Of a DNA stretch of 44,057 nt, positions 2,420 through 30,786 are shown piece by piece. The stretch spans positions 1-44,057 of the forward strand of contig JABJJO010000125.1 of assembly GCA_018660825.1 (NCBI GenBank), in the 5' to 3' direction. The position numbers and the translations under genes were made by a program. Source of the DNA: Planctomycetaceae bacterium (GTDB lineage: Bacteria > Planctomycetota > Planctomycetia > Pirellulales > Pirellulaceae). The notes under the pieces were generated by a model. The model worked only from the letters and a program-made list of their open reading frames with translations. It made no database searches and was not told the DNA's origin. How positions within the stretch are numbered: the first letter of the stretch is position 1; the number at the start of each line of letters is the position of its first letter.

Positions 2420-3817
2420 ATGAAATACACTCTCGCAATTACTGCTCTGTTCCTAATTGAATCATCGCTAGCGGCGCAGACGTTTGTCGACGTCACCGCG
2501 AATTCCAAACTAACCGGTATGGCAGGGGGTTCCGTGGCTTGGATCGATTTCAACCAAGATGGACACGAGGACCTAAACGTTTCAAATCAGGTATGGATTA
2601 ACAACGGCGATTCAACCTTCAGGAAACTTGCCGACACCGGTCTCGCTGGATCGGCAGTTTGGGCGGATATCAACAATGACGGGTATCCGGATGCTATGTG
2701 TTGGACCGGAAAGGGGTATCTATTTCTCAACCAGCAAGGAACCGCCCTAACCAATATCAGTGACAACCTTCCTGACTTGCCTACAACTGTTAGTCTCGCC
2801 GCCACCATGGGGGATTTCAACGGTGATGGACTGGTTGACCTGTATGTAGGCGGTTACGAGGGCCCCGGCTATTTGACCGATGTCATGTATTTCAATCAGG
2901 GGGCAAGCGTCTTCAAGGAGGTCTGGCGAACCAAAGGAACGACTATGCCAGCCCGGGGCATTACGACTGCTGACTATGACGAGGACGGAGACCTAGATAT
3001 CTATGTTTCCAATTACCGCCTTGTACCCAATACACTTTGGAATAACGATGGCAAGGGGAAGTTTACGCAAGTAGAGAAAACAGCCAAAGTAGACGGTGAT
3101 GGCGGTCTTGGCGCCTGGGGTCATACGATCGGATCGAGCTGGGGCGATATAGATAACGATGGGCACCTTGATCTATTCGTCGGAAATTTCAGTCACCCGC
3201 CTGCATATCAGGATAGGGCAAAGTTTTTAAGAAACCTTGGAAAAGATGGGGCGTATGTCTTTGACGACAGAACAGCCAATGCAGGACTTGCGTGGCAGGA
3301 ATCTTTTGCATCACCAACTCTCGGTGACTACGACAACGATGGTTTACTCGATCTCTATTTTACAACTGTCTATGGCGGGGATCACTGCGTGCTGTACAAA
3401 AATGCCAACGATTTTCAATTCAAAGATGTCACGCAGGCATCTGGAATCACGGCCGACACCACCTATCAGGCCGCATGGGGAGACTATGACAATGACGGCG
3501 ATCTAGATCTCGTCACCAAGGGGCGGCTCTATCAAAACAATACCCCCAAAAAAAACTTCGTGCAAGTCAAACTTGTGGGAACGGGCTTAATCGATAAAAT
3601 GGCATTCGGCGCTCAGGTGCGAATCACGGTGGCCGACCGTGTATACACCCGACAGGTCAGTTCTTCGACTGGACAAGGCAATCAAAATTCATCTATTTTG
3701 CATTTCGGTTTAGGAGATTACGCTGGCTCATTGAAGGCTCAAGTCTCATGGCTAGGTGGCAAACAGACAACAAGAACACTTAAACTAAATCACCTCAATA
3801 CGATCCATCCCCAATAG
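2420..3817 (+). CDS. Secreted FG-GAP/VCBS-repeat protein with UnbV (ASPIC) C-terminus
   Basis: A 465-residue exported beta-propeller protein. The frame is open upstream to 2354, but the ATG at 2420 gives a clean signal peptide (MKYTLAITALFLIESSLAAQ), so it is preferred; this start is 10 bases after the DUF1501 stop. At least seven FG-GAP-type repeats carry Ca-binding-like D-x-D/N-x-D-G-x-x-D cores, for example DFNQDGHEDL, DINNDGYPD, DFNGDGLVDL, DYDEDGDLDI, DIDNDGHLDL, DYDNDGLLDL and DYDNDGDLDL. The last ~90 residues match the ASPIC/UnbV domain (FGAQVRITVADRVYTRQVSS, then HFGLGD and VSWLGG). Such proteins are usually extracellular and may bind partners or matrix. Co-transcription with the upstream cassette is likely from the spacing. 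The specific ligand is unknown. Confidence 0.88.
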   Translation: MKYTLAITALFLIESSLAAQTFVDVTANSKLTGMAGGSVAWIDFNQDGHEDLNVSNQVWINNGDSTFRKLADTGLAGSAVWADINNDGYPDAMCWTGKGYLFLNQQGTALTNISDNLPDLPTTVSLAATMGDFNGDGLVDLYVGGYEGPGYLTDVMYFNQGASVFKEVWRTKGTTMPARGITTADYDEDGDLDIYVSNYRLVPNTLWNNDGKGKFTQVEKTAKVDGDGGLGAWGHTIGSSWGDIDNDGHLDLFVGNFSHPPAYQDRAKFLRNLGKDGAYVFDDRTANAGLAWQESFASPTLGDYDNDGLLDLYFTTVYGGDHCVLYKNANDFQFKDVTQASGITADTTYQAAWGDYDNDGDLDLVTKGRLYQNNTPKKNFVQVKLVGTGLIDKMAFGAQVRITVADRVYTRQVSSSTGQGNQNSSILHFGLGDYAGSLKAQVSWLGGKQTTRTLKLNHLNTIHPQ

Positions 3818-4030
3818 AACTGTAAAACAAAAGATAGCCAGTGTTTCTACTAAATACGTTGCCGAGTTGGGAGAACTGGTCTTCGGCTTGTTAAGCGGAT
3901 TATATATCAGTTGAAAACATTAAGTTTCATCGCATAACAAACCGAGCGTTGCTAAACAGCGTTTACGCTACCGCACATCAGATAACTTCAGATTGCTGCA
4001 AGCCATGACGCTATCCAACTATAACTCGCT

Positions 4031-4606
4031 TCACTCCCAGAGTATTTCATCCAGAACCTGTCCATCCGGGTGATTAGTTTTCCATTCTCCCCAGGACATT
4101 AATTCAAATGGGTACTCCCCATATGGAATATTTTCCGCTTCCTGCAAATACGATTTTCCTTTAACCAATATTGCCATATGCCCCGCGGCCAGCCCTGCCT
4201 GCATGATATCCAGTTTCTCTTCGCCGGGCTGCCCTTGAAAAACACGTACGCATTCCGACTCATTGCAGTAGGTTACCGCAATCGGAAGGCCTTCATAGAC
4301 TTCACTGACCACATGCTCGGACATACCATTCATCCAACGTTTCGGAAAAGCGTAGTGCTGTTCACCAATGTTTAACGTAATCACTTCGTCCTGATCATCA
4401 AGGTTGGCCCCCCCGACAGTCACAAACGAACGCTCTGGTGTTTCAAACTGACCATCCAAAAACTCATCCTGTAGCATTTCGTCATCGGGATACTGCTCTG
4501 TTACTTGAAGCGCAATGTGATCCGTTACAAGCAAACAGCCGTATGCCAGTAGGGCGGCTAGCAGCAACACCCCCGCACCAGCAGTTATATACTTCACTTT
4601 GGCCAT
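4031..4606 (-). CDS. Small membrane-anchored DUF3179-like protein
   Basis: A 191-residue protein with one N-terminal membrane segment (about residues 8-28, AGAGVLLLAALLAYGCLLV) and a soluble, acidic outer domain. The segment GLPIAVTYCNESECVRVF (Cys114 and Cys119) together with the preceding HYAFPKRWM and the following GHMAILVKG resembles DUF3179, where a PVAVTYCP motif is typical; the match is partial, so this is a moderate call. The frame opens at a GTG at 4615, but the ATG at 4606 has GGGAAG eight bases upstream and is the better start. The gene sits alone between a plus-strand propeller gene and a minus-strand DUF1501 gene. Function is unknown. Confidence 0.6.
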   Translation of the reverse strand: MAKVKYITAGAGVLLLAALLAYGCLLVTDHIALQVTEQYPDDEMLQDEFLDGQFETPERSFVTVGGANLDDQDEVITLNIGEQHYAFPKRWMNGMSEHVVSEVYEGLPIAVTYCNESECVRVFQGQPGEEKLDIMQAGLAAGHMAILVKGKSYLQEAENIPYGEYPFELMSWGEWKTNHPDGQVLDEILWE

Positions 4607-24561: not shown

Positions 24562-25875
24562 ATGAAACGCTACAACACCGATCGTCGAGATTTCATTAAA
24601 ACCACTGGCATTGTTGCTGGTGGTTACTGGCTGGGAACGTCAGTGCCTGACGTCAGTGCCCGTTCAGCAAATGAACAACTGAATATTGCCTGTATCGGTG
24701 TCGGCGGACGCGGTTCGGCAAATGTCGGTGGTGTATCAGGTGAAAATATCGTCGCCATGTGCGACGTCGACGAGTCCAAGGCTGGAAAGCGATTTCAAGA
24801 ATTTAACAAGGCTGGAAAATTCAAGGATTACCGAGTCATGTTCGACAAGGTCGGACAACAGCTGGATGCGGTCGTAATCAGCACGCCAGATCATACACAT
24901 TTCCATCCAGCACGACAAGCAATGCTCGAGGGCAAACACGTTTATTGCGAAAAGCCTCTTGCTCACTCCGCTTGGGAAATTCGGCAGCTAACAAGAATTG
25001 CTAAGAAAGCTAATGTCGCAACGCAATTGGGGAACCAGCGACATGCCAATGCTGGCATGGCTCGAGCTGTGGAGGCGGTGCAATCCGGAATGGTTGGTAA
25101 AATCAAGGAAGTCTACTGTGCAATCGGCGGTTCACGGGGCATGCCTCCGATGCCTAAAGATTCTCCATCAATTCCAAATCATCTTGATTGGAAATTGTGG
25201 CAGGGGCCTGTTACGCAGCGAGAATATGCACCTGACTATGTGCCCTATAAATGGCGATTCTGGTGGGACTATGGAACTGGTGAAACCGGTAACTGGGGTT
25301 GCCATATTCTCGACATTCCTTACTGGGCGTTAGGACTGAAATATCCCACGCGCGTCGATCTGGACGTCGTCCCTACCGGAGATCAAATCGATGCCCAGCG
25401 CACACCTAAATCAATGAAGACTCGCATGGAGTATAAGGCTGAAAACGGACATGATGCGGTCATTCTGCATTGGTGGCACGGAGACATCAAAGAAGTCTTC
25501 GTAAAACACAACGCTCACGCATATGGGAACACATTGTTCATCGGTGAAAAAGGTACGATATCAGCAGGCTTCAGCGGATATAAAGCCAAGTTGAATGACG
25601 GCGACGAGCCGAAAGCTCCCAGTCCCTCAATTCCAAAGTCACCCGGATTCTATAAGGAATGGATCAACGCCTGTAAGGGTGGTCAGCGCAGCACGTGTGA
25701 CTTCGTGAATTATTCGGGTGCACTTTCCGAAACAGTTCTCCTAGCAAATGCCGCCTACCGCTCTGGCGGCGGGTTTGACTGGGATGCTACAGCCTTCAAA
25801 TCGAGTGGCAATGCCAAGGTGGATCAATATATTAATGCTGAATTTGCGAAGGGTTGGGAAGTCGACGAAATCTAA
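24562..25875 (+). CDS. Gfo/Idh/MocA-family oxidoreductase, Tat-exported
   Basis: A 437-residue NAD(P)-dependent oxidoreductase of the glucose-fructose oxidoreductase/inositol dehydrogenase type. The N-terminus TDRRDFIKTTGIVAGGYWLG is a twin-arginine signal, so the folded, cofactor-loaded enzyme would be exported. The Rossmann fold starts about residue 40 (NIACIGVGGRGSANVGG, a GxGGxG-type nucleotide loop), with the STPDHTHF run near 107 and the catalytic EKPL at 130-133. The C-terminal substrate domain has WDYGTGETGNWGCHILDIP near 235. This branch is common and multicopy in planctomycetes and usually acts on sugars or inositols. The ATG has AGAGAATAG just upstream. The gene stands alone with about 276 bases to the next gene. 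The substrate cannot be told. Confidence 0.93.
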   Translation: MKRYNTDRRDFIKTTGIVAGGYWLGTSVPDVSARSANEQLNIACIGVGGRGSANVGGVSGENIVAMCDVDESKAGKRFQEFNKAGKFKDYRVMFDKVGQQLDAVVISTPDHTHFHPARQAMLEGKHVYCEKPLAHSAWEIRQLTRIAKKANVATQLGNQRHANAGMARAVEAVQSGMVGKIKEVYCAIGGSRGMPPMPKDSPSIPNHLDWKLWQGPVTQREYAPDYVPYKWRFWWDYGTGETGNWGCHILDIPYWALGLKYPTRVDLDVVPTGDQIDAQRTPKSMKTRMEYKAENGHDAVILHWWHGDIKEVFVKHNAHAYGNTLFIGEKGTISAGFSGYKAKLNDGDEPKAPSPSIPKSPGFYKEWINACKGGQRSTCDFVNYSGALSETVLLANAAYRSGGGFDWDATAFKSSGNAKVDQYINAEFAKGWEVDEI

Positions 25876-26151: not shown

Positions 26152-26790
26152 ATGCAAAAACTGATTAATGGATTACTTCAATTTCAAAACGAGGGCTTTG
26201 GCAAATATCAGGATTTATTTGAGACACTCGCCGGGGGGCAGAATCCCGCCGCACTTTTCATCACCTGCTCCGATTCACGGGTAAATCCTAACCTACTGAC
26301 CGGCTCCGATCCCGGCGATTTATTCGTGCTTCGAACTGCTGGTAATATCATACCACCCTACAAGAATGCACTCGGGGGAGAAGCGGCTACGATCGAGTAC
26401 GCCGTGCAAGTCCTGAAAATACCCGACATTATCATCTGCGGTCACTCTCAATGTGGAGTAATGGGTGGATTACTTTCCCCAGAATCAATCGAAGACCTGC
26501 ACGCGGTCAAAGCATATCTTGAGCACGCTCAATCGTGCCTTTCAGTTGTTGAACAGAAACACAGTCAAATACCCGACAGTGAGACGCGCCTCGCACGGAC
26601 CATCGAGGAGAATATCCTCTTGCAACTTGAAAACATTCAAACACATCCGTCCGTTGCAGACGCTATTGGTCGCGGAGATTTGAAACTACACGGATGGGTA
26701 TATAAATTTGAGACCGGCGAAGTATCTGCTTACAACTCGGATCAGAACGCATTCCTTCCGCTGGAATGCAATTCGCCTCCGATAACCTAA
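26152..26790 (+). CDS. Beta-class carbonic anhydrase
   Basis: A 212-residue beta-carbonic anhydrase that interconverts CO2 and bicarbonate. All active-site landmarks are present: CSDSR with zinc ligand Cys39 and the Asp41-Arg43 pair, GDLFVLRTAGN, GGEAATIEYAVQVL, and GHSQCGVM with zinc ligands His98 and Cys101. There is no signal peptide, so it is cytosolic. Length is typical. An SLC4-type anion transporter gene with an EIIA domain follows 246 bases downstream on the same strand, which fits a joint role in bicarbonate uptake or pH control. A promoter-like sequence about 130-155 bases upstream suggests its own transcript. Confidence 0.96.
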   Translation: MQKLINGLLQFQNEGFGKYQDLFETLAGGQNPAALFITCSDSRVNPNLLTGSDPGDLFVLRTAGNIIPPYKNALGGEAATIEYAVQVLKIPDIIICGHSQCGVMGGLLSPESIEDLHAVKAYLEHAQSCLSVVEQKHSQIPDSETRLARTIEENILLQLENIQTHPSVADAIGRGDLKLHGWVYKFETGEVSAYNSDQNAFLPLECNSPPIT

Positions 26791-27036
26791 CTGACCAAAT
26801 TTGCATTTCTAACACCCGTTAACGATTAGCACTTATTACGTTTCCGGTGAACCGAAGAAAGCATTTTCACAGTACTTTCTTTTTAAAAGTTTATCTTGCA
26901 ACAAAGGCAATGTTATTATAAACTTCCCGACACAGACGTGTCCAAACGGGATTATAAAGCGTTTCCACCCTACCAGTTGTGGTGTGTGCGGCTTTTCCCT
27001 CATAACATCTCTTAAATCGATAACAACGGAAAACTC

Positions 27037-27744
27037 ATGCATCTTCTACGAGAAGCGATCGAGGCCGGGAATTTATGGCTTGACCTTTCAGAGGATCAAG
27101 TCGAGCCAATTTTTGACCACGTACTGGATCATTTGGTCGACTCCAATGTAATCTCCCACGAAAATCGGGGGGTAATTCTAACCGAATTACTATCAAATGA
27201 AAGTGTGTCGAGCAGTGCTCTGAGCGACTCCGTCGCCATTCCCCACGTCTACATAGACGAGCTGAGCGAGCCGATAATTTACTTTGTCCGTTTAGCTCAT
27301 CCTGCCAATTTAGGTGCTGCGGACGGAATTGCCACTCGGTTTATATTCTTTTTGTTGGGGCCCACACATGCAGGGTCTGAGCACCTCAACACTCTGGCTG
27401 CTATCACTTCATTGGCATCCGACGACGAATTTCGTTACGACATTGGGAAATCCAAATCAAAGCACGAGTTCCTTTCGGCAATGGATCGTTTCCAACAACG
27501 ACATCCGAAACAATACGACGAAGAGACTTCACAAGCCAAGTCGGGCCATGTGGGACTTGAATTCACTGGAAAATTTGGAGGAGGAGTCCGCGAGGATATT
27601 GCTCGAAGACTACCTCACTATTGGAACGATTTCACCGAGGGCTTTAATTTAAAATGTGTTGGTTCCATATTTTTTCTACTCTTTGCCTGTTTGGCACCGG
27701 CCGTTCTGTTTGCCGGTCTGATGGGTGTTTACACCGATAATTAA
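27037..27744 (+). CDS. PTS EIIA-like domain fused to the start of an SLC4 (band 3) transporter; ends at an in-frame stop
   Basis: A 235-residue frame. Residues about 1-150 form a fructose/nitrogen-type PTS EIIA domain; VAIPH places the phosphorylatable histidine at His70. After a linker, residues about 178-235 match the N-terminus of the SLC4 transport domain: GGGVREDIARRLPHYWNDFT, then a first membrane helix (FFLLFACLAPAVLFAGLMG) and YTDN. The frame then meets TAA at 27742-27744, and the next codons in the same frame read IGVVEMILATAICGV, exactly the continuation expected for the family. Human band 3 has a Gln at the matching place, so one C-to-T change of CAA would explain the stop. Start: ATG with CGGAA six to eight bases upstream. 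A fragment alone would hold one transport helix, so function as such is doubtful. Confidence 0.82.
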   Translation: MHLLREAIEAGNLWLDLSEDQVEPIFDHVLDHLVDSNVISHENRGVILTELLSNESVSSSALSDSVAIPHVYIDELSEPIIYFVRLAHPANLGAADGIATRFIFFLLGPTHAGSEHLNTLAAITSLASDDEFRYDIGKSKSKHEFLSAMDRFQQRHPKQYDEETSQAKSGHVGLEFTGKFGGGVREDIARRLPHYWNDFTEGFNLKCVGSIFFLLFACLAPAVLFAGLMGVYTDN

Positions 27745-27750
27745 ATCGGC

Positions 27751-29094
27751 GTGGTCGAAATGATTCTGGCGACGGCAATCTGTGGTGTGCTATATGCTCT
27801 ATTTTCAGGAACACCACTAATTATTTTGGGCGGAACCGGGCCGTTACTCGTCTTTACGGGTATATTATTTCTACAGTGCAAGCAACTGGAGATTGCATTT
27901 CTTCCGACCTACGCTTGGGTTGGGATTTGGTCGTCCATACTATTGCTAATCGCAACCATGTTCGACGCCAGTTTTCTTATGCGATATTTCACACGCTTTA
28001 CCGATGAAATATTCGCGGCGCTGATTTCAATTATCTTTATTGTCGAGGCCATTAAGAGTCTTGTTGCGGTCTTTCAGAGTCCGGACAAAACGACGTTTGC
28101 CGAACCGCTCTTGGCGTTGGTCTTGGCCTTGGGAACATACAGTGTTGCCATGTATCTGTCACGTTTGCGCGGAAGCGACTTTTTGCGATCGCAACTTCGG
28201 CAAATATTGTCAGACTTTGGCCCAGCTATTGCGTTGGGGCTCATGAGTCTCATTGCCGTTTTAACAAGCGACGCTATACCCCAAGATTTTCTTTCGGCGC
28301 CGCAAGAATTTGGAACGACCAGTGGTCGTGCTTGGATAGTGGATTTATGGTCGGTTCCGATGTGGGTACGAGCGGCGGCGATTATTCCAGCCATCCTAGT
28401 GTCGGTTTTGGTTTACCTCGATCAAAATATTACCGCCCGTTTGGTAAACAGTCCGGACCACCATCTTCATAAAGGGGTCGCTTATCACTTAGACCTAGGT
28501 CTGGTAGGCATCCTGATGGCGATATGTTCGTTTTTTGGTCTTCCTTGGTTAGTCGCCGCGACAGTTCGGTCTTTGAATCACGTACGTAGTTTGGCAACTG
28601 TAGAAGCGGAAACCGATGCCAACGGGCATTCGCATGAACGAGTCATTCACGTTCGAGAGAACAGACTGACTGGGATTGTCATCCATCTGGCGATCGGTGT
28701 AATACTGTTCTTAATGTTGGACAAACTAGCATTGGTCCCAAAATCTACGCTCTACGGATTGTTCTTGTTTATGGGAGTCGTATCCATATCCGGCAACCAG
28801 TTTTTTACACGAATTAGCCTGTGGATTCGAGATCCCTCGCTCTACCCAACAACGCATTATTTGCGACGGGTTCCGCATTCCGTCATTCACCTCTTTACCG
28901 CGTTTCAAGCAGCATGCTTGGCGGTTCTATGGATTGTCAAAAAAGACAAGGACCTAGGAATTCTATTCCCCTTGTTTATCGCAATTCTCGTTCCCATTCG
29001 GATGCTGGCTGGAAAGTTTTTTAAAGAAGAACATCTCCAAGCATTAGACGCAGACGAACTCCCCGAGGAGGAGAGCAACCACTACTCAGTATAA
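27751..29094 (+). CDS. SLC4-type (band 3/HCO3-) anion transporter, remainder after the in-frame stop
   Basis: A 447-residue frame continuing in register from the EIIA fragment. GTG at 27751 is the first usable start, without a visible ribosome site. It carries the rest of the SLC4 membrane domain: ALFSGTPLIILGGTGPLLVF, GLPWLVAATVRSLNH, LYGLFLFMGVVSISGNQFF, HLFTAFQAACLAVLWIVK and the tail LQALDADE, each close to the matching motif of animal anion exchangers. About 11-12 hydrophobic segments are visible. The first helix lies on the other side of the stop. There are no frameshifts or further stops, so the sequence has not decayed. Inferred substrate: bicarbonate, given the family and the neighbouring carbonic anhydrase. 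It may work by readthrough, as a split protein, or not at all; a base-call error is also possible. Confidence 0.85.
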   Translation: MVEMILATAICGVLYALFSGTPLIILGGTGPLLVFTGILFLQCKQLEIAFLPTYAWVGIWSSILLLIATMFDASFLMRYFTRFTDEIFAALISIIFIVEAIKSLVAVFQSPDKTTFAEPLLALVLALGTYSVAMYLSRLRGSDFLRSQLRQILSDFGPAIALGLMSLIAVLTSDAIPQDFLSAPQEFGTTSGRAWIVDLWSVPMWVRAAAIIPAILVSVLVYLDQNITARLVNSPDHHLHKGVAYHLDLGLVGILMAICSFFGLPWLVAATVRSLNHVRSLATVEAETDANGHSHERVIHVRENRLTGIVIHLAIGVILFLMLDKLALVPKSTLYGLFLFMGVVSISGNQFFTRISLWIRDPSLYPTTHYLRRVPHSVIHLFTAFQAACLAVLWIVKKDKDLGILFPLFIAILVPIRMLAGKFFKEEHLQALDADELPEEESNHYSV

Positions 29095-29123: not shown

Positions 29124-30590
29124 TCATTTCGATTTACTAAGCTCGACGCGAGTGTAAGGACTGGATATATAGGTATTGTAGATCAGGTCTCGATATTTCA
29201 TCGTCTTCCGATGGTTGCTGAATAGATCGATGCGAGACGCCGAAGAATCGATCTTGATCTCTGTGGTCCACACGTCCTTCTTCATATCGCGTGTCATTTC
29301 CTTTGAATTCGCATCGGGAATGAGTTCCTTTAGATATCGCGGACTTCCGTCGGGGCCGCGATTGTTGATCCACCAAATTCTCCCTGTTTCTTCACGGGCA
29401 TTGGGGGGGAATCGAACGGTGACTCGCAGGACATCGTTCTTTACCTCTGTTTCGATCGCGGGGGGAGACAGCAGCGTTTCTGTAAACTCATCAGGGAAAA
29501 AATGCCGCAATAGTAACGCAGCTTTGTTTTGCTGATCGCGTTCGATTTTTAGGTGCCCCTTTTTCCCGTGACCACTGTTAGCTCCCAGGTAAATGGGAAT
29601 TGAAGGGTGATTGGCTCCACCCCAGGCCATATCGTAGGCCACCATGTCGTGAGTTCCGGGGTGAAACAGCATATCAACTCCCCGACTGCGAAGGTCTTTT
29701 AAGTTTCTCGAAATAAATACCTGATCCGAAATATCTTCGGTAAAGCCTTGTAAATCCTCCCATGTCTGACCGGCGTTGAGCGCGCGTTGGTTAAAGTTGG
29801 GGCCGAAATGCCCACCGGAGAAGCCACGTTGCTGACCTCCCGCTTCGAGATGCTGATCCCAGGCCTGCTGATCACAGAGCCGAAGGGGAGAATCCCAGAT
29901 GGGGGAAACGGTCGCGTGCAGCGCCGTCATACGGTCGTCGTGTATAATCGCCATCGAAGGCGAGGCACCATTTTTGGACGCGCCCGTCACGGCGACTTTT
30001 CCCTCGTCAAAGTATTCCGCCTCCGCATAGGCAGTCGTAACAGCTCGCATCAACGTTGCTGGCCAAGCCCAATACTGGATTTTGTAATGAGGATTTAGCG
30101 TTTTCGCGAAGCGTGCTTCGGCGGTACCTGCCAGTTCGGCTTTCCCGTAGGATCCAGGCTCCTGGACGACGGTCATCACCAATCCCACGCCACCTTTAAG
30201 TAATTCCAAATTCGTTCCCCTTGGTCTGACTTCGCGTTGAACACTAACAGGGGAATTCCCACCCGTAAGATGAAAACCATGGGCTTTCCGATCACCCGGA
30301 ACCACCATTCGAACGGGTACTCGATATTCCTGGCCCGCCCAAATTTCTCCGACGTTGATGGTAACGAGTTTTTGTCGGGTAACGACTGGTCCATTGACTG
30401 TTCGCCACGGTTGCACAATCTCAATTTCCAGCGTGTCCGGATCGCTAATCGCTCGCATATCAAACACCTGCTGAGCTTGTGCGAATGTCGTTAGCATCAA
30501 AACAAATCCAAGACAACAAAGCTGACTAGCGACATGACTTACATTGAGCGCGTTACCAAGACTTACAAAACCGCTGCGATGACATTTCAT
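29124..30590 (-). CDS. Secreted alpha/beta hydrolase, PhoPQ-activated-protein-related
   Basis: A 488-residue exported protein. The ATG at 30590 is preferred over a TTG two codons earlier; the signal peptide hydrophobic core is CCLGFVLMLTTFAQAQ. The segment VAVTGASKNGASPSMAIIHD holds a GxSxxG nucleophile (Ser205), followed by ALHATVSPIWD, and later VDMLFHPGTHDMVAYDMAWGG and YLGANSGHG give likely Asp and His positions. This layout resembles PhoPQ-activated pathogenicity-related proteins, a hydrolase family of unclear substrate. A C-terminal beta-rich part of about 100 residues follows. The gene converges with the transporter gene, with 29 bases between stops. An esterase role on sugars would suit the neighbouring genes but is inference. 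Confidence 0.65.
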   Translation of the reverse strand: MKCHRSGFVSLGNALNVSHVASQLCCLGFVLMLTTFAQAQQVFDMRAISDPDTLEIEIVQPWRTVNGPVVTRQKLVTINVGEIWAGQEYRVPVRMVVPGDRKAHGFHLTGGNSPVSVQREVRPRGTNLELLKGGVGLVMTVVQEPGSYGKAELAGTAEARFAKTLNPHYKIQYWAWPATLMRAVTTAYAEAEYFDEGKVAVTGASKNGASPSMAIIHDDRMTALHATVSPIWDSPLRLCDQQAWDQHLEAGGQQRGFSGGHFGPNFNQRALNAGQTWEDLQGFTEDISDQVFISRNLKDLRSRGVDMLFHPGTHDMVAYDMAWGGANHPSIPIYLGANSGHGKKGHLKIERDQQNKAALLLRHFFPDEFTETLLSPPAIETEVKNDVLRVTVRFPPNAREETGRIWWINNRGPDGSPRYLKELIPDANSKEMTRDMKKDVWTTEIKIDSSASRIDLFSNHRKTMKYRDLIYNTYISSPYTRVELSKSK

Positions 30591-30786
30591 TACCAAAATA
30601 TTCCCTTCATGAATTTCGCAAATTTCTCACTCTGACCTAACTCAAACACTACAAGCTCATAGCCAATATAGCTGATGGGGATTTTTGTTTCACCATGCAC
30701 CCTTGACGAAAGATGACTTCATTACTTTTTCTTGCATTGCGTTTTCGTCCTTTCCCGTTGACGTCCGGTACTATAAAGTGCTTGCG

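Follow-up and report, generated by a model that had tools for sequence, protein, structure and literature searches.

A second, diverged EIIA-SLC4 transporter gene of a planctomycete, probably broken recently by one nonsense codon

Why does the gene for a bicarbonate-type transporter of a planctomycete carry a stop codon within an otherwise open frame? The gene lies in the window, by which we mean the whole 44,057-nucleotide stretch of Planctomycetaceae DNA that was analyzed (contig JABJJO010000125.1). Upon translation, the frame runs from an ATG at 27037 to a TAA at 29092-29094 with 685 codons before this final stop, and the TAA at 27742-27744 (codon 236) is the sole internal stop among them. 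The original prediction had described an EIIA domain and an SLC4 (band 3) membrane domain in one frame, interrupted by this TAA and open from there to the final stop. Both the description and its coordinates agree with translation and Pfam. The parts of the gene are as follows.

27037-27741, plus strand: N-terminal part of the interrupted gene, 235 codons, comprising the EIIA / band 3 cytoplasmic-type domain, a linker and the first membrane helix (translation, Pfam, model)
27244-27246, plus strand: codon of His70, at the position of the EIIA phospho-acceptor histidine (PtsN alignment)
27742-27744, plus strand: in-frame TAA in the TM1-TM2 loop, a stop at 236 between model helices 205-232 and 239-256
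27745-29094, plus strand: rest of the SLC4 membrane domain, in the same frame and with no further break (translation, Pfam)

Pfam assigned the sequence on both sides of the stop. PTS_EIIA_2 (PF00359) matched residues 12-149 (E 3e-19, 69.8 bits against a cut-off of 27), and the best stretch of Band_3_cyto, residues 73-152 (E 1e-19), falls on the same domain. HCO3_cotransp (PF00955) begins at residue 181, before the stop, with E 1.5e-15 on 55 residues, and goes on past it with E 1.7e-140; at 57 bits before and 470 bits after the stop, both parts pass the cut-off of 27 bits. When the whole genome was searched with PF00955, this place was again reported as a single frame with one TAA inside. Since both sides match one family in register, the stop-bearing frame did not arise by chance. 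An SLC4 protein is expected to be one uninterrupted polypeptide, which the window gene, with its TAA at codon 236, does not encode; as read, it would give no whole protein unless the stop is bypassed or erroneous.

An AlphaFold2 model of the read-through protein, built with 52 relatives, had a mean pLDDT of 84.2 and a pTM of 0.71, and placed the stop directly after the first membrane helix, where it had been predicted. The model has the SLC4 fold by Foldseek: as a whole it matched AE2 (8gv9) with E 3e-45 and a whole-chain rmsd of 13.0, and the membrane-domain chain 8jni (497 residues) matched with an rmsd of 2.1 over 514 columns. For the human AE2, AE3, AE1 and BTR1 chains, both domains were aligned to the model, with a large overall rmsd and a close fit of the membrane domain alone. 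Sequence matches to human SLC4 proteins (AE1-3, NBCe1, NBCn1, NDCBE, BTR1) reached E values down to 8e-118. Among the human N-terminal domains listed, the significant match begins at window residue 72-74, past the EIIA active-site loop.

One way to account for the stop is a natural split transporter, in which an EIIA-TM1 piece ends at the TAA, translation restarts at GTG 27751 or ATG 27760 and the parts assemble in the membrane. These codons begin 7 and 16 bases past the last base of the stop. Such a split is physically possible because complementary fragments of human band 3, for example co-expressed TM1-2 and TM3-14, reassemble into a functional unit, as stated in an excerpt of PMC8914234. 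For GTG 27751 the predicted anti-Shine-Dalgarno pairing is poor (-1.7 kcal/mol), and for ATG 27760 it is intermediate (-5.1); with values from -0.5 to -9.6 at 16 hand-picked ORF starts of the window, the gene's own included, it is no discriminator for a restart. The TM1-TM2 loop is extracytoplasmic in SLC4 proteins, which means that the second piece would need to be inserted with an N-terminus that faces outward.

We compared homologues across the junction, as the original prediction had proposed. From the contig-collection scan we took the best 80 of 123 loci. In 78 of these 80, residue 236 lies within a single tblastn match that has no stop there, and the remaining two (L071 and L073) begin after residue 236 at a contig end. 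A second set of 29 loci came from genome searches; it includes another copy from the window's own genome, and at least eight of the others are genes also present among the 80. Here, 28 of 29 cross residue 236 without a stop and one (L045) is a contig fragment. None of the 78 and 28 loci with a spanning match, two groups that overlap, is split at the window's position. The natural two-gene form that had been offered as an option finds no counterpart among the loci examined, and we regard it as quite improbable. Stop-codon readthrough, yielding some full-length protein from a frame that stays open past the stop, faces the same comparison, in that no locus with a spanning match has a stop at 236. 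Moreover, TAA is generally the least leaky stop codon. We consider readthrough very unlikely, and both of these options rank below a nonsense mutation or a sequence error.

Breaks at other positions do occur in the family. Among the relatives' matches, L019 and L111 alone contain an in-frame stop, at residue 154 and in the form without the EIIA part; their contigs are both 82,978 bases long, and the two loci probably represent one gene. L078 (3297-3912) and L085 (3294-3545), two draft-genome copies, are frameshifted within the EIIA part, which shows that the EIIA-SLC4 gene is broken or misassembled in other genomes as well. We also considered L037 (G121) as a second stop-bearing homologue and dismissed it, its one TGA being the ordinary C-terminal stop.

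The same genome contains a second EIIA-SLC4 gene, on contig C186 (L005:2097-4780, with its neighboring gene), of 679 codons and with no internal stop. The two copies are 54 percent identical over their whole length. This identity and the tree placement do not support the window copy as a recent duplicate of the intact one: in the midpoint-rooted membrane-domain tree, the window copy forms a long-branched group with L042, L043 and L084 (support 0.942), a grouping that may reflect long-branch attraction. In the second copy the EIIA domain scores above the Pfam cut-off and has Arg at the RE-motif position, where the window copy has Asn54. None of its conserved EIIA sites is changed (0/14 and 0/24 at the 95 and 90 percent levels).

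For these conservation counts we scored, in each row, departures at sites conserved in the other rows. The main set held 71 rows, equal to 69 distinct genes: the window copy, the second copy and EIIA-keeping relatives. Frameshifted, EIIA-less and contig-cut loci were left out, as was L104; L011, which begins at residue 60, was kept. After the stop, the window copy changed 2/106 sites at the 95 percent level, with 30 of the 71 rows changing more, and 7/149 at the 90 percent level, with 17 rows changing more. From the linker to the stop, the counts were 1/14 (95 percent) and 1/19 (90 percent). The proposed check for selection on the downstream part, made here across relatives and not strains, therefore found a normally constrained membrane part. 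Conservation on both sides of the stop (1/14 before and 2/106 after) also suits the split transporter discussed above.

The EIIA part of the window copy stands out more. Its changes numbered 3/15 at the 95 percent level (R54N, I62L and G63S), a count exceeded by one row and equaled by another, and 8/24 at the 90 percent level, a count exceeded by one row. The exact count varies with the rows taken: an earlier set of 68 rows gave 6/19 at the 95 percent level (rank 2) for the EIIA part and 3/114 after the stop, and a 77-row set with duplicates gave 2/14 for the EIIA part. When the 68-row tree was fixed, the window copy had a long terminal branch in every part (EIIA part rank 3, TM1 part rank 1, the rest rank 6), and its EIIA-to-rest branch ratio was unremarkable (rank 18 of 68). 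The idea that only the part before the stop has relaxed is therefore not sustained: the evidence is mixed, with high EIIA losses but branch lengths that single out no part. In our reading of the alignment, the transporter part would have been under selection for nearly all its history, and the EIIA part would have drifted or changed role.

The residue lost at codon 236 had been predicted as Gln. Among the 70 other rows, Gln is indeed the commonest residue there (25), followed by His (10), Glu (7) and Ala (7), with the remainder scattered; the position is variable and does not fix the ancestral codon.

How old could the stop be? In a neutral calculation, the chance of no further break fell to 5 percent after 0.042 substitutions per site when only point changes were counted, and after 0.014 substitutions per site with 0.1 indel per substitution. 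Together with a frame that is otherwise unbroken, this implies that the stop is young, or is not real, or is bypassed in a gene still in use. The second of these would mean that the stop is absent from the living population, arising by consensus error or strain mixture in a draft, probably metagenome-assembled genome, with the gene whole. The assembly (4.94 Mb in 221 contigs, 96.6 percent complete, 2.11 contamination) leaves room for this, and an otherwise open frame, a normally constrained membrane part and the frameshifts of L078 and L085, possibly flaws of the same kind in other drafts, are all in keeping with it. Against it stands the type of change, which is a substitution and not an indel; long-read errors are typically indels, and at ordinary coverage substitution errors seldom reach a consensus. 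We judge an error or mixture unlikely and rank it second, after a true mutation. There is a single assembly, and even the nearest relatives share only ∼58 percent identity with the full-length protein (65 percent after the stop; L091, best 80 of 123); a true mutation and a consensus error therefore look alike here, and the stop's recent age is given only as a bound.

With one interrupted gene, no split among the relatives examined and an intact second copy, a fresh nonsense mutation or a base-call error keep the leading place that the original prediction gave them. Our preferred reading, to which we assign a probability of roughly 60 percent, is that the window carries a second, strongly diverged EIIA-SLC4 gene of the planctomycete that was recently broken by one nonsense codon. 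Judging by its family, the whole gene would have encoded a membrane protein that transports bicarbonate or a similar anion, acting beside the carbonic anhydrase encoded upstream and regulated via its cytoplasmic EIIA-like domain. If the stop is real in the cell, the product would be a fragment of 235 residues that comprises the EIIA domain and the first helix and is presumably unable to transport. The function is presumably supplied by the intact copy on contig C186, and the broken copy is probably redundant. One point tells against a broken gene, as a conserved membrane part is equally expected of a gene that still works. The stop itself carries little weight, be it a break in a probably redundant gene or an assembly flaw.

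The carbonic anhydrase gene lies upstream of the transporter on the same strand, with a gap of 246 bases.

26152-26790, plus strand: beta-type carbonic anhydrase gene (PF00484; Pfam E 1.6e-46)

In the second copy, a carbonic anhydrase frame (L005:2097-2744) overlaps the transporter ATG (L005:2741) by 4 bases, as in tightly coupled operons; in the window pair such close spacing was lost or never existed. An AAGGAG precedes the ATG of the second copy, and the window pair is without such a motif. A sigma-70-like promoter match (11/12) lies at 26915-26944 in the gap after the window's carbonic anhydrase gene, on the minus strand and pointing away from the transporter; in total, sigma-70-like matches were at chance level (4 found, 4.3 expected).

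Based on the family and the neighboring carbonic anhydrase gene, the whole gene product would be expected to transport bicarbonate or carbonate. Arg511 of the window protein stands where AE2 has Arg, a position that we take to be R730 of AE1, and is Arg in 70/71 rows. Asp462, which is Asp in 53/71 rows, aligns with NBCe1 Asp754. An excerpt of PMC8191340 names Asp754 as a sodium-site residue and describes residue signatures of sodium-coupled transporters and exchangers. The Asp and Arg pair mixes the two signatures, and hence we claim neither sodium coupling nor exchange.

PF00955 matched in 15 of 98 genomes searched and the downstream part matched in 14 of 392 genomes of the phylum at E ≤1e-30, the window's genome being included in both counts. 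Eight further members of the genus, with genomes 69-99 percent complete, were searched and gave no PF00955 match, which suggests that the group can probably do without the function. The genes at 24562-25875 and 29124-30596 have DNA-level relatives in these congeners, and no SLC4 match lay beside them within the short loci examined. Synteny does not demonstrate an empty site, because those SLC4-free loci are short and the two relatives lie on different contigs in one congener (G008).

The original prediction called the EIIA-SLC4 fusion unusual. By tblastn reach, 56 of the best 80 of 123 loci have the EIIA part, 19 are without it and 5 are cut by contig ends, which makes 56 of 75 decidable loci; L123 is counted among the 56 for a neighboring second gene, and L104 among them has no EIIA match in Pfam. 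The EIIA domain was above the Pfam cut-off in all three further proteins scanned (the second copy, L051 and L112). The 19 EIIA-less loci are six planctomycete ones and, by record titles, others from Bacteroidota, Deltaproteobacteria or Myxococcales. Judged from these alignments, bacteria of this kind commonly have the fused form. That the N-terminal domain of SLC4 has an EIIA-like fold is, moreover, already published in PMC4664831, and the claim of an unusual fusion is not supported. Thalassoglobus neptunius (L077), Roseiconus nitratireducens (L107) and Rhodopirellula baltica (L117) have the same domain order as the window copy, with 52, 47 and 47 percent identity to it across the matched stretch and with His70 kept; across 52 aligned bacterial sequences, identity to the window copy is 45-58 percent. 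These bacterial EIIA-SLC4 relatives are uninterrupted, whereas the window copy has the stop and has lost Arg54 and Gly63. The EIIA part of bacterial SLC4 proteins and the animal domain probably have one origin.

This raises the question of whether the EIIA domain works as a phosphorylation switch, as the original prediction had suggested from the fusion. His70, noted there in the motif VAIPH, falls on the corresponding motif His of PtsN (EIIA-Ntr; 4gqx, 3urr), which matches window residues 6-144 with E 3e-13. It is His in 70/71 aligned rows, the exception being L084, and His116 is conserved in 70/71 as well. Such conservation of the EIIA His in bacterial SLC4 proteins was new to us. The window's EIIA differs from PtsN in being fused to a transporter and in having Asn for the RE-motif Arg, an active-site residue of PTS EIIA type 2. 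Thus the window copy has the profile score and the phospho-acceptor His of that type and lacks its Arg (Asn54). Arg54 is kept in 66/71 rows (one row gapped) and Gly63, Ser in the window copy, in 70/71.

Components of a phosphorelay were found by profile on contig C104 of the window's genome.

L143:4285-4761: PtsN-like EIIA
L143:4953-5303: HPr
L143:5556-7298: EI

In L143:3510-8949 these genes stand in a row between an hpf-like and an rng-like gene, as we take the flanking genes to be, in the order hpf-like, PtsN-like EIIA, HPr, EI, rng-like. By its gene content, the row looks like a PTS-Ntr-like relay. No EIIC of PF02378, the EIIC family searched, was found in the window's genome. All tested genomes with EIIA-SLC4 have EI (23/23) and HPr (23/23), whereas EI is present in 8/20 and HPr in 7/20 tested genomes with EIIA-less SLC4. 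The 23 came from genome searches and leave out G162 and G243 (fragments) and the genomes behind EIIA-bearing contig-collection loci, and among the 20, L098 is truncated at the edge of its contig, which leaves its EIIA absence undecided. The twelve EIIA-less genomes without EI are eleven Bacteroidota and one labeled Deltaproteobacteria (L089); of the six planctomycete genomes whose SLC4 is EIIA-less, all have EI and five have HPr. The contrast follows phylum, so it shows no functional link and lends no real support to PTS control.

Of the suggested control by phosphorylation, the general part holds up better than the particular one. A near-invariant His and the presence of EI and HPr genes make PTS control of bacterial SLC4 plausible from sequence, but phosphorylation of the window copy is doubtful since it has lost Arg54 and Gly63. 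We put forward tentatively, with the odds somewhat against it, that bacterial SLC4 proteins are controlled directly by a sugar-free (PTS-Ntr-like) phosphorelay: EI and HPr would phosphorylate the conserved His in the fused EIIA, thereby gating bicarbonate transport according to cellular carbon or nitrogen status; in animal band 3, the cytoplasmic domain would be a remnant of this switch; and the window copy, its Arg and Gly lost, would have been uncoupled before breakage. With a near-invariant EIIA His in genomes that have EI and HPr, a direct biochemical test is possible. SLC4 proteins matter in human physiology, and their human cytoplasmic part is related to a bacterial domain that keeps the phosphorylation-type His. 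What the large cytoplasmic domain fundamentally does is raised as a key question in PMC4664831, the only title on PTS control of SLC4 among the open-licence literature looked at; we claim no novelty for such control.

Three loci deserve brief mention. In a Sandaracinus draft (L104:1613-3340), the SLC4 frame is open for up to ∼560 more residues N-terminally with no Pfam match there, and an EIIA-like part that tblastn counts as present is below Pfam detection. A second SLC4 copy at L091:139-1551 begins inside the first helix, perhaps cut by an insertion; the sequence ahead of it resembles, we presume, the end of an IS3-type transposase. Lastly, L123 holds two SLC4 genes (517-2346 and 3051-4562) close together on opposite strands, the match of one reaching into the EIIA part (query residue 63) and that of the other starting at 163.
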